58,871 nt of DNA from assembly GCA_018820315.1 (NCBI GenBank), contig JAHJOQ010000137.1, positions 1-58,871 of the forward strand, in the 5' to 3' direction. Shown in pieces: positions 50,917 to 55,576 of the stretch. Numbering within the stretch: the stretch's first letter is position 1; every line of letters starts with the position of its first letter. The DNA comes from Candidatus Zixiibacteriota bacterium. GTDB lineage: Bacteria > Zixibacteria > MSB-5A5 > JAABVY01 > JAHJOQ01. The notes beneath the pieces are model-generated. The model was not told the origin of the DNA. It made no database searches and worked only from the letters and a program-made list of their open reading frames with translations. A program made the translations under genes and the position numbers.

Positions 50917-51873
50917 ATAGTTACACGTCGCGATTTCTTGAAGAAGACTGGCAAGGCTGCCGCAGCATCAGCGCTGTTCGGGGCGGGCTATCTTCTGGCA
51001 GATTCAAGACCTGATTTCCCTGTGGAAAAAAAGGCTCTTGGGATCCATCTCAAATATGCAATCGACGATCCGATTCTCGCACAGAAGCTCGCCGTTGCAC
51101 GAGACGATTCGCCTGCCAGACTCGTCGAAAGAGCGTTGCTGGCTCTTGGCGGGATCGGTCAGTTTGTCTCGAAAGGTGACCGAGTCGTGATAAAGCCGAA
51201 TGTCGGCTGGGATCGTGTACCGGAGCAGGCTGCCAACACGAATCCGGAAGCGGTCGCGCAGATGGTAAGGATGTGCCTGGCTGCCGGTGCAAGAGAGGTC
51301 ATCGTTACAGATGTTACCTGCAACGATCAGCGGCGGACATTCCTCCGTTCCGGAATTCAGGCAGATGCTGAAAAAGCTGGCGCGAAGGTTCCCCTCTCGA
51401 CAGACAGCGATTTCACTGAGATTGATCTCGGTGGTCAAGTCCTGACCGTATGGCCGGTGCTCAGACACATGATCGAGGCTGACAAGTTTATCAATATGCC
51501 GATTGCGAAGCATCACAGCCTCACCGGCGCGACTCTCGGCATGAAGAATCTTTACGGCATCATTGGTGGCAGGCGGAATCAGCTTCACCAGAAGATTGAT
51601 CAGTCTATTGTCGATCTGGCGACATTCATGAAGCCGACTCTTGTGGTGGCGGACTGCTATCGCGTGTTAATGCGCAATGGACCGGTCGGTGGAAATCTTG
51701 ATGATGTGAAGGAATGCCGCGCTGTTGTCGCCGGAATAGACCAGGTTGCTGTCGACGCGTATCTCACGCGCTTCCTCGATAAGACACCGGAGGATGTGAG
51801 CCACATCGCGCTTGCTCATCGAGCGGGGCTCGGCGGCATGAATCTGGATCATATAACGATTCTGGACGGTTAG
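50917..51873 (+). CDS. Tat-exported DUF362 protein with an apparent ATA start
   Basis: The nominal start is a TTG at 50938, but the frame is open further upstream and reads VTRRDFLKKTGKAAAASALF, a textbook twin-arginine signal, and the hydrophobic stretch continues to GAGYLLA. The codon before it is ATA at 50917, five bases after GGGAGG. No ATG, GTG or TTG lies between. The mature protein of about 290 residues is a DUF362 domain (VVIKPNVGWDRVPEQAANTNPE, VTDVTCND, NMPIAKHHSLTGATLGMKNLYG, HQKIDQSIVDLATF, VDAYLTRF). It has no ferredoxin cysteines, unlike many members. It sits three bases before the polyferredoxin gene. Confidence 0.78.
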   Translation: MVTRRDFLKKTGKAAAASALFGAGYLLADSRPDFPVEKKALGIHLKYAIDDPILAQKLAVARDDSPARLVERALLALGGIGQFVSKGDRVVIKPNVGWDRVPEQAANTNPEAVAQMVRMCLAAGAREVIVTDVTCNDQRRTFLRSGIQADAEKAGAKVPLSTDSDFTEIDLGGQVLTVWPVLRHMIEADKFINMPIAKHHSLTGATLGMKNLYGIIGGRRNQLHQKIDQSIVDLATFMKPTLVVADCYRVLMRNGPVGGNLDDVKECRAVVAGIDQVAVDAYLTRFLDKTPEDVSHIALAHRAGLGGMNLDHITILDG

Positions 51874-51875
51874 TA

Positions 51876-53540
51876 ATGACAATTGAAACAGTCCGTAATC
51901 TCAGACGCACCTCACAGGGCCTGTTTCTCGCAATATTCCTTATCCTGCTTCTCAGAACCGGATTCTCCGGATCGTTGTCCGCAGACGCAATCAAAGATTT
52001 CAGGCTGTCCTGGCCGGTGGCTGTGTTCCTGCAGTTCGATCCGCTCATGGCAATCTCGACAATGCTCACGACATGGCGTCTTTACGACGGGCTTCTGTGG
52101 TCTCTGATCCTTGTTGTCGCGACGTTGTTTTTCGGGCGATTCTTCTGCGGCTGGGTCTGTCCGACGGGAACAGTTAATCACTTGTTTTCATTGGGAAAAG
52201 CTAATCGCAAATCGCTACTTGGCAAAAGCGTCGTAGACTCGAACCGATGGCACCGTTACCAGAAGTTGAAGTACTACATATTGATATTGATGCTCGGGGC
52301 AGCTCTGCTGACCTCGCTTTTGACCGGCATTCTCGATCCACTGTCGCTGCTGATCAGATCAGTTGGTCTGGTTGTGATCCCGATGGTTTTGTATGTCATA
52401 GATTTTGTCAACGGTATCCTTTTTGGTGCAGGAGCGACTGCTCTGACCTATCCGGGAATCGCGCTGAACATGTTCTCTGAGCATGTGCTGTTGATGACAA
52501 AACCGGTACACTATCACACAATTATCTCCTTGGGACTATTCTTCTTCCTCGTGCTTGCGACCAATCGAGTATTTACCAGATTCTGGTGCCGTGGCATTTG
52601 TCCTCTCGGGGCGTTGCTCGGGATACTATCTCGATGGTCGATTCTTGGGATGGAGAAATGTCATGAGAACTGCACCGACTGCAATCTCTGTCTTAAGTAC
52701 TGTCAGGGCGGAGACGACCCGATTGCGAACACACCGTGGAGAAAGGCCGACTGCCATCTATGTCTGAATTGTCAGGCTGTTTGTCCTGAAAATGTCATCA
52801 AGTTTAAGCTGTTTCCGAAGGATGCTCTCGATCAAGTGAATCCGGCGCCTGATATCACACGCCGCAAAGTTGCTGCTTCGATTCTCGGTGGGGCCGTCGC
52901 CGTTCCACTGATGCGGTCCGGGGATGATTTTGAGGCGAATTTCAATGAGAAATTGATCCGCCCGCCCGGCTCGGTCTCTGAGGACCAGTTTCTGTCGAGA
53001 TGTGTCCGTTGTGGCGAATGCATGAAAGTCTGCCCGAACAACGCTTTGCACCCGACGTTTCTGGAAGCTGGCTGGGAAGGTATATGGTCGCCGATTCTGA
53101 TCCCACGCATAGGCTACTGCGAGCACACATGCACACTTTGCAGTCAGGTTTGTCCGACCGGCGCGATCAGGGAGATTACGCTCGAAGATAAGGTTGGAAC
53201 TGAGGACAAACGCGCGATTTCGATTGGCACTGCATTTTTCGATCGCGGGCGATGCCTCCCCTGGGCGATGGCGACACCCTGCATCGTCTGTGAGGAATGG
53301 TGCCCGACATCGCCAAAAGCGATTTATTTCGTCGAAGAGGAAGTGGTCGGACCTGACAAGAAGCTCGTTACGGTGAAACGACCGCACATGAACCCGGATG
53401 TTTGCATTGGATGCGGGGCTTGCGAAAAAGTCTGCCCGATTGTCGATAAGCCTGCGGTATATGTAACATCGGTGGGGGAAACACGCTCATCATACAATCA
53501 GATACTTCTTGAAAGAACAATGAAACGGAAATCGTCGTAA
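51876..53540 (+). CDS. Polyferredoxin: NapH-like membrane part fused to NapG-like part
   Basis: The N-terminal half has about five membrane spans and NapH/MauN motifs FFCGWVCPTGTVNHLF and FWCRGICPLGALLG. Two 4Fe-4S motifs follow (CTDCNLCLKYC, CHLCLNCQAVCP). Near residue 327 is TRRKVAASILGGAVAVPLM, a Tat-like internal segment, after which come four more 4Fe-4S sites: CVRCGECMKVCP, CTLCSQVCP, CIVCEEWCP and CIGCGACEKVCP, as in NapG. The protein (554 residues) thus joins NapH and a NapG-like ferredoxin, which are separate subunits elsewhere. It likely moves electrons across the membrane to periplasmic iron-sulfur proteins. It starts three bases after DUF362. Confidence 0.85.
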   Translation: MTIETVRNLRRTSQGLFLAIFLILLLRTGFSGSLSADAIKDFRLSWPVAVFLQFDPLMAISTMLTTWRLYDGLLWSLILVVATLFFGRFFCGWVCPTGTVNHLFSLGKANRKSLLGKSVVDSNRWHRYQKLKYYILILMLGAALLTSLLTGILDPLSLLIRSVGLVVIPMVLYVIDFVNGILFGAGATALTYPGIALNMFSEHVLLMTKPVHYHTIISLGLFFFLVLATNRVFTRFWCRGICPLGALLGILSRWSILGMEKCHENCTDCNLCLKYCQGGDDPIANTPWRKADCHLCLNCQAVCPENVIKFKLFPKDALDQVNPAPDITRRKVAASILGGAVAVPLMRSGDDFEANFNEKLIRPPGSVSEDQFLSRCVRCGECMKVCPNNALHPTFLEAGWEGIWSPILIPRIGYCEHTCTLCSQVCPTGAIREITLEDKVGTEDKRAISIGTAFFDRGRCLPWAMATPCIVCEEWCPTSPKAIYFVEEEVVGPDKKLVTVKRPHMNPDVCIGCGACEKVCPIVDKPAVYVTSVGETRSSYNQILLERTMKRKSS

Positions 53541-53557
53541 GTGGAGGCGATATCTTT

Positions 53558-54517
53558 ATGAAGATAAGATACATTATTCTGGTGAATTTGATATTTGTGC
53601 TTGTGGCCGGATGCGGTGAGCAATCCGATACCGAATCATCCGGCCAACAGGGCGCGGCGAAGTCGTCCCCGAAGCAAGTCGTCTCTACGACTGCAATACT
53701 TCCACGAACCGAGGAACTTGCCGGATTTGAGAAAGTCTCGGACGATCGTGTGTTCGACGCGTATGAGACACTGGACTATGTCGGTGAAGATTCCCTGCTA
53801 TTCGCAGACTACAGAGTGGTTGCAGCCGCATCTGCCGATTACATTGCCACTGAGGCCGATCTCCAGTTTGCAGTAGATGTGTACCGATTCCCCGGTTACT
53901 CCGAAGCTTTTGGAATCTATGCCCACCATCGCAAACCTGAACTGAAATATGTCAATGTCGGAACGCAGGGATACCTCGCTGATGGGTCGCTGTCGTTTTT
54001 CAGCGGAGACTACTATGTCAAAGTCTCGGGATATGCAGATTCCGAAGACAATGACTCGGCAGCAGTATACCTTGGCATGGCCGCGGCAAATCGAATCGAC
54101 CAGAAATCGGTCTACCCGGCAGCAATACTCCTTATGCCTGAAGAGGGGAAGATCATCAATTCAGAGGAGTATTTCCCATTGAAGTTCCTCGATCACGATT
54201 TTTTCTCACCCGCGTATGCGTGCCGGTATCACCTCGGTGATTCGGTTTCGACTCTTGTCTTCATGCCGCGTGGATCGACAGCGGAGCTTCTTCAATACAA
54301 AGAGATTCTCACCAATCGGGGAAATAAAGTCATCGAGGAGCAACAGGGGGAACTACGCCTTTACTTCTGCGATGATGATAGACATGGCAGAGTCATCATG
54401 TCATCCAGAGCGGGGCGATTGGCTGGTGTAATTAACACCCCTGACAGGATCCTCGGTATGGAACTTCTTATGAAGCTCTGGAACAATGTCGATGTTGCGC
54501 AGCAGGGACACGATTGA
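53558..54517 (+). CDS. Lipoprotein of the redox module (DUF6599-like)
   Basis: A lipobox (LVAGC, Cys about 19) anchors this 319-residue protein. It has the two-part alpha/beta look of DUF6599 proteins, which occur beside this polyferredoxin: VSDDRVFDAYETLDYVGED, AVDVYRFPGYSEAFGIYAHHR, YYVKVSGYADSEDNDSAA, FPLKFLDHDFFSPAYACRYHLGD. The family is of unknown function. GGAGGCGA lies upstream of the ATG. Position and spacing (17 bases after the polyferredoxin) make a three-gene operon; this protein is likely the outer-membrane or periplasmic anchor of the module. Confidence 0.7.
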   Translation: MKIRYIILVNLIFVLVAGCGEQSDTESSGQQGAAKSSPKQVVSTTAILPRTEELAGFEKVSDDRVFDAYETLDYVGEDSLLFADYRVVAAASADYIATEADLQFAVDVYRFPGYSEAFGIYAHHRKPELKYVNVGTQGYLADGSLSFFSGDYYVKVSGYADSEDNDSAAVYLGMAAANRIDQKSVYPAAILLMPEEGKIINSEEYFPLKFLDHDFFSPAYACRYHLGDSVSTLVFMPRGSTAELLQYKEILTNRGNKVIEEQQGELRLYFCDDDRHGRVIMSSRAGRLAGVINTPDRILGMELLMKLWNNVDVAQQGHD

Positions 54518-54586: not shown

Positions 54587-54925
54587 ATGATAGATTTCGA
54601 GTTCACCGATGACTACAACACCGTCGCGCAGCTTGCTCGTGACGTGGTTCATAAATATCTGAAGCCGAAGATCACCGAGCTCGATCGTGAAGCGAAATAC
54701 GATCCCGATTTTGCCGGTCATTTGAAAGATGCTGACCTTCTCGGAGTCTGCATCCCCGAAAAATACGGCGGCATGGGGATGGACCATATCTCCCTTGGGC
54801 TGGTCTGCGAAGAGATGGAGTATATCGACACATCAGCACGAATTATCTTCTCGGTGCATGTCGGGCTCAATTCAATGACGCTTCTGACATGGGGAAATGA
54901 GGCGCAGAGAGAGAAGTCCCTCGTC
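54587..54925 (+). pseudogene. Truncated acyl-CoA dehydrogenase
   Basis: The frame from the ATG at 54587 begins as a normal acyl-CoA dehydrogenase N-terminus: LARDVVHKYLKPKITELDR, LGVCIPEKYGGMGMDHIS, and SARIIFSVHVGLNSM, LLTWGNEAQREKSLVPQ. Homology stops at about 54925, where the next 75 bases (stop at 55000) read unrelated residues. The FAD-binding middle and the C-terminal catalytic Glu domain are missing. It should be inactive. A Nudix gene begins 25 bases after the stop. Confidence 0.8.
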
Positions 54926-55024
54926 CCACAGGCGGACTATCTGCTCGGATTCAGAACCGACCGTCCACCGAGATGTCTGCTGCCGGCATACGAAGAGTAG
55001 TCGCACAGGCAGCGAAGAATCAAC

Positions 55025-55576
55025 ATGTTTGTCACACCCGAAATCATCGCTGAGATTGAGAAGCAGTATGGCAAGCCTGAGGAGCGCTCGGCTCGCTTTG
55101 AGATGTCTGTTAGGCATTTTGCCAATCTGAAGAGTAGTCAGAAGAATGGTCGCAGTCACGATGTTACGCTTTTCATCAGGAAAGACGACAAATTTGTCGT
55201 GATAGCCAAGCATTTCTATCCTCCGGGGCTTTATCGTCCACCATCGGGCGGGATCAATCCTGGGGAAGGCTTTGTCGATGGTGCGAAGCGCGAGGCAAAA
55301 GAGGAGACCGGATGCGATGTTGAGCTCGTGCGCTATCTGATGCGAGTTTCGGTCGAGTTTTTTTGCGGGGCCGAGGCTGTCGACTGGACAAGCCACGTGT
55401 TCTTGGCCGACTATATTTCGGGAGTGATTAAACCGCTGGACACGGTGGAGATTCGAGAGATCGCTCTGGCCGGAATCGATAAGTTCCTATATTTCAAGGA
55501 GTTACTTCTTGCAAGCGATTCCGGGGGCATGCATTATCGGGCGTATCTTCACGATGAAATCCTAAAAATCCTCTGA
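55025..55576 (+). CDS. Nudix hydrolase
   Basis: The Nudix box G-x5-E-x7-REUxEExGU is complete in PSGGINPGEGFVDGAKREAKEETG, giving the metal site of pyrophosphohydrolases. The N-terminal 50 residues (EIIAEIEKQYGKPEERS, HFANLKSSQKNGRSHDVTLFI) do not identify the substrate. Length is 183 residues. The ATG at 55025 lacks a strong ribosome site. The location next to the broken acyl-CoA dehydrogenase suggests its upstream operon was lost in the same deletion. Confidence 0.85.
   Translation: MFVTPEIIAEIEKQYGKPEERSARFEMSVRHFANLKSSQKNGRSHDVTLFIRKDDKFVVIAKHFYPPGLYRPPSGGINPGEGFVDGAKREAKEETGCDVELVRYLMRVSVEFFCGAEAVDWTSHVFLADYISGVIKPLDTVEIREIALAGIDKFLYFKELLLASDSGGMHYRAYLHDEILKIL

Follow-up and report, generated by a model that had tools for sequence, protein, structure and literature searches.

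The window, the 58,871-nucleotide stretch of Candidatus Zixiibacteriota DNA analysed here, encodes a NapH-NapG fusion polyferredoxin that probably delivers electrons to Fe-S enzymes outside the inner membrane. The biogenesis of such a fusion is already known from Tooke et al. 2017 (PMC5449189). What looks new is its co-inheritance with two exported partners, a radical-SAM enzyme set and an aldo/keto reductase. We assign a probability of roughly 0.55 to the complete explanation, a membrane polyferredoxin assembled by both Sec and Tat that would relay electrons to exported Fe-S oxidoreductases. The tight co-inheritance gives the polyferredoxin family a testable function, and it leads one to ask if radical-SAM chemistry operates outside the cytoplasm and by what means.

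The fusion protein and its two neighbors

The locus consists of three tightly packed genes on the plus strand, encoding a DUF362 protein, the fusion and a DUF6599 protein, with spacers of 2 and 17 bases (Table 1). Open reading frames and domain matches place the three genes where the initial annotation had put them. Its description of the flanking proteins as exported or lipidated agrees with a Tat domain match in the DUF362 protein, where R4 and R5 of the signal are invariant in 23 sequences, and with a lipobox-like LVAGC, read off the sequence, in the putative lipoprotein DUF6599. LarA and DUF362 belong to one Pfam clan (PMC11770544), a membership that was not used here to assign function. 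A sequence search of the DUF362 protein against solved structures gave a single match at E 0.35, no PDB match at E ≤ 0.001 came from a fold search with the predicted DUF6599 structure (mean pLDDT 91), and no paper on DUF6599 by name was found in the literature searched. The DUF362 start codon in the window (50917-50919) is ATA, with GGGAGG just upstream and with ATG at the same place in the close relatives L005 and L006; a rare start codon and a base error are the two readings of this ATA. Elsewhere in the window genome (contig C14, L117:3384-5243), another DUF6599 lipoprotein is paired with a Tat-signal DUF362 protein, and no polyferredoxin adjoins them. To judge by its nearest relatives, the genome appears to be zixibacterial.

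Table 1. Features of the three-gene locus, in window coordinates
Feature	Position	Strand	Basis
DUF362 protein, N-terminal Tat signal (I/M)VTRRDFLKK	50917..51873	+	PF04015 E 7.9e-47; TAT_signal_seq
NapH-NapG fusion polyferredoxin, 554 aa	51876..53540	+	NapH/NapG model matches; 47-member alignment
First CX3CP (C91, C95), likely cytoplasmic end of a NapH helix	52146..52163	+	motif scan; invariant
Second CX3CP (C238, C242)	52587..52604	+	motif scan; invariant
Cytoplasmic-side 4Fe-4S site C266-C276	52671..52703	+	motif scan; invariant
Cytoplasmic-side 4Fe-4S site C293-C303	52752..52784	+	motif scan; invariant
Internal RR motif with TMD5, a helix of low hydrophobicity (residues 329-346)	52860..52913	+	alignment; predicted model
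NapG-type 4Fe-4S site 1, C376-C386	53001..53033	+	motif scan; alignment
NapG-type 4Fe-4S site 2, C415-C426	53118..53153	+	motif scan; alignment
NapG-type 4Fe-4S site 3, C460 and C469-C476	53253..53303	+	motif scan; alignment
NapG-type 4Fe-4S site 4, C510-C520	53403..53435	+	motif scan; alignment
DUF6599 lipoprotein, lipobox-like LVAGC near residue 19	53558..54517	+	PF20244 E 2.1e-23

NapH models hit the N-terminal part of the fusion, and the NCBIfam NapG model NF007012 covers residues 334-539 (E 1.1e-26), with both scores below the equivalog cut-offs (NapG, 93.6 bits versus 269; NapH, 61.0 versus 234). Judged by sequence, each half is a homolog, of NapH and of NapG respectively, without being called an equivalog. 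The motif scan gives the order as two CX3CP pairs, two four-cysteine sites, the twin-arginine segment and four NapG-like sites, and all 28 site cysteines are invariant in an alignment of 47 fusion sequences, with relatives at 35-76% identity. Model matches to both halves and the invariant cysteines thus uphold the proposed NapH-NapG fusion with four further 4Fe-4S sites, and the fusion is not due to chance because hundreds of relatives exist. The two halves have their homologs in NapGH, with cysteine sites of the same kinds; NapH and NapG, however, are separate proteins serving nitrate reductase, whereas the window protein is one chain, and nitrate reductase is absent from the recurrent neighbors of the fusion.

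The twin-arginine segment (TRRKVAASILGGAVAVPLM) begins at residue 328, and its arginines are R329 and R330. The arginine pair is conserved in 44 of the 47 sequences. TMD5 is less hydrophobic than TMD1 in every one of them, on a simplified scale of our own, and position 347, after TMD5, is positive in 43 (arginine in 41, lysine in 2). A fold model of fair quality (mean pLDDT 66, low in the NapG half) places a helix at residues 329-346, and together with the arginine conservation this sustains the claim of an internal Tat-like segment. The charge pattern is compatible with either four or six transmembrane helices, and the model helices at 155-184 and 188-205 would allow either count. A fold search with the model found no PDB match, and the model, poor in the NapG half, contains no cofactor path across the membrane. 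TatC is encoded in the window genome.

How the second half of such a protein crosses the membrane, which the initial annotation had posed as a puzzle, had already been answered for such proteins by reporter fusions in 2017. According to Tooke et al. 2017 (PMC5449189), who named the architecture polytopic polyferredoxin, Sec inserts the first half and Tat exports the second in polyferredoxins with an arginine pair before TMD5; reporters placed after TMD5 of the protein from the δ-proteobacterium MLMS-1 (Q1NSB0) are exported by Tat, and changing RR to KK abolishes export. Compared through its published description, the MLMS-1 protein is likewise a NapH-NapG fusion with the arginines directly before a weakly hydrophobic TMD5, a positive charge after it, and seven Fe-S sites, three inside and four outside, as in the window fusion. 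By these sequence features the window protein fits the dual Sec/Tat polytopic polyferredoxin family as presented there. Export of its second half is supported by analogy with the reporter data, by the conserved arginines and by the weakly hydrophobic TMD5. In three loci (L090, L094 and L097) the polyferredoxin continues at its C terminus, the NapG end, into DUF6599, and DUF6599 can be tied to the outer face on this account. The work on the MLMS-1 protein concerns biogenesis and, in the text consulted, assigns that protein neither a function nor a partner enzyme; for the window fusion there are candidate partner enzymes.

Partner enzymes and their co-occurrence with the fusion

Across 80 fusion loci, DUF362-type genes are present in 59 and DUF6599-type genes in 45, by one clustering and with many contigs ending early. 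In many neighborhoods the fusion is accompanied by a radical-SAM enzyme of family TIGR04337 with a Tat signal, together with a Memo-AMMECR1 fusion, another DUF362 protein and a membrane protein whose domain resembles spermidine synthase; elsewhere the companion is an aldo/keto reductase that has a Tat signal and ferredoxin sites, and the remaining families occur in a few loci each. No terminal reductase recurs among the 80 neighborhoods, and a link to terminal reductases, whose presence beside these genes in other genomes the initial annotation had named as a check, is not supported. The recurrent partners are instead an exported AmmeMemoRadiSam set and the Tat-signal aldo/keto reductase.

The window genome carries both partners, unlinked to the fusion. 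On one contig (C92, L114:6090-11986), a radical-SAM enzyme with a Tat signal is encoded together with a Memo-AMMECR1 fusion, a DUF362 protein and a membrane protein that contains a spermidine synthase domain. The radical-SAM enzyme matches TIGR04337 above the cut-off and has the Memo-AMMECR1 fusion nearby, which identifies the set as AmmeMemoRadiSam (TIGR04335, TIGR04336, TIGR04337). It differs from that system in the Tat signal of the radical-SAM enzyme, the signal-like N terminus of the Memo-AMMECR1 protein, and the adjoining DUF362 and spermidine-synthase-like proteins; the C92 set is seemingly exported, to go by these N termini. The literature searched, which covered few of the subscription journals, yielded no account of an AmmeMemoRadiSam set that is exported. 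The aldo/keto reductase, on contig C103, has a Tat signal and two C-terminal 4Fe-4S sites.

We defined the exported-type radical-SAM enzyme as having at least 50% identity to the copy in the window genome; nearly all of those read have a twin-arginine signal and keep CxxxCxxC. Among 98 genomes of the window's phylum, 54 have both fusion and enzyme, 4 only the fusion, 6 only the enzyme and 34 neither (Fisher test ignoring phylogeny, p 7.6e-16, odds ratio 76). The presence lists were transcribed by hand, and G034, where the fusion is split over two contigs, was counted as positive. In the same order the counts are 41/2/4/20 by genus and 17/0/0/21 inside one large family. The ferredoxin-tailed Tat aldo/keto reductase has 26 carriers among the 98 genomes, 25 of which have the fusion, and it is present in all four fusion genomes that lack the radical-SAM enzyme; every one of the 58 fusion genomes of the phylum therefore has at least one of the two partners.

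A second sample comprised 149 genomes from the phylum of L066, apparently an acidobacterium, in which exported-type enzymes were classed without one-by-one reading of Tat signals. The counts for fusion and radical-SAM enzyme were 34/11/9/95 (p 5e-16) and for fusion and aldo/keto reductase 22/23/0/104 (p 4e-14), and four fusion genomes had neither partner. A lower-identity radical-SAM paralog also correlates with the fusion, with an odds ratio of 4.9 (p 0.003) in the 98 genomes and 5.2 (p 1.6e-5) in the second sample, again by a Fisher test that ignores phylogeny, and part of the co-occurrence signal is therefore attributable to shared lifestyle. Fusion and partner genes are adjacent in many loci, and in G023, G055, G089 and G097 they lie on the same contig but far apart, so that co-transfer alone does not account for the association.

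A proposed relay to exported enzymes and its alternatives

We propose a relay for which gene content, sequence features and co-occurrence are observed, whereas the passage of electrons, the direction they take and the enzymes they reach are inferred. Sec would insert the NapH half, which carries three Fe-S sites on the cytoplasmic side, the twin-arginine helix of low hydrophobicity would be handed to Tat, and the folded four-cluster NapG half would be exported. On the outer face the NapG half would pass electrons to exported Fe-S oxidoreductases, the candidate acceptors in the window genome being the Tat-signal radical-SAM enzyme and aldo/keto reductase, with the DUF362 and DUF6599 proteins as putative outer-face partners. 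Such a relay accounts for the topology as well as for the partners and for the absence of a recurrent terminal reductase. Against it, the exported enzyme occurs without the fusion in six genomes of the first sample and nine of the second. The proposal resembles the NapH-like extracytosolic electron transfer systems (PMC8238504), in which a NapH-like membrane Fe-S relay carries electrons to or from exported oxidoreductases, although the outer carrier there is a flavinylated FMN-binding domain and not a four-cluster NapG domain.

The quinone pool is a possible electron source. The radical-SAM cluster requires a strong reductant, which menaquinol alone would not provide, and we know of no SAM supply outside the cytoplasm. 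Cytoplasmic ferredoxin, aided by the membrane potential, could supply the reductant. It is a tentative and rather doubtful extension of the relay that the fusion acts as a transmembrane power line for an extracytoplasmic radical-SAM enzyme, taking low-potential electrons from cytoplasmic ferredoxin and moving them outward with the help of the membrane potential; if true, an extracytoplasmic compartment would host radical-SAM chemistry that has an electron supply dedicated to it.

It is unlikely that the fusion instead acts along the lines of the initial annotation, as a quinol dehydrogenase sending electrons from the quinone pool by way of the DUF362 protein and the lipoprotein to a respiratory acceptor outside the cytoplasm, in the manner of NapGH with nitrate reductase. 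The homology of its halves to NapH and NapG is in keeping with such a role, NapGH itself being a quinol dehydrogenase (PMC5449189) and NapH-like proteins serving several reductases (PMC8238504). Besides the want of a recurrent terminal reductase, however, Pfam detects no redox domain in the DUF362 and DUF6599 proteins of the window, and the linked enzymes are non-respiratory.

Aldo/keto reductases are reversible, which favors a flow in the opposite direction, where enzymes such as the exported aldo/keto reductase would oxidize substrates and the fusion would return electrons to the membrane pool. An exported alcohol oxidase is also found with NapH-like systems (PMC8238504). We nevertheless consider this reversal improbable, since the radical-SAM enzyme, the tightest-linked partner in the window's phylum, needs a reductant. 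Co-inheritance with no direct electron link, through one anaerobic lifestyle or one genomic island, would fit the adjoining genes and the correlated paralog, and we give it little credence because the exported-type enzyme has an odds ratio of 76 against 4.9 for the paralog, the association of the fusion with each partner holds in both phyla, and fusion and partner can be far apart on single contigs.

A topology with all ferredoxin sites cytoplasmic and the twin-arginine segment inside a globular domain, which the weak hydrophobicity of that segment might suggest, is extremely unlikely and was rejected, as weak hydrophobicity is a requirement of the Sec-to-Tat handover (PMC5449189), the arginine pair is nearly invariant among fusion sequences, and relatives carry at the C terminus a fused domain, DUF6599, that is elsewhere exported.

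Downstream of the locus, positions 54587-55000 of the window encode a truncated acyl-CoA dehydrogenase of 137 aa with the N-terminal domain only, which is probably a pseudogene, followed by a NUDIX gene at 55025.
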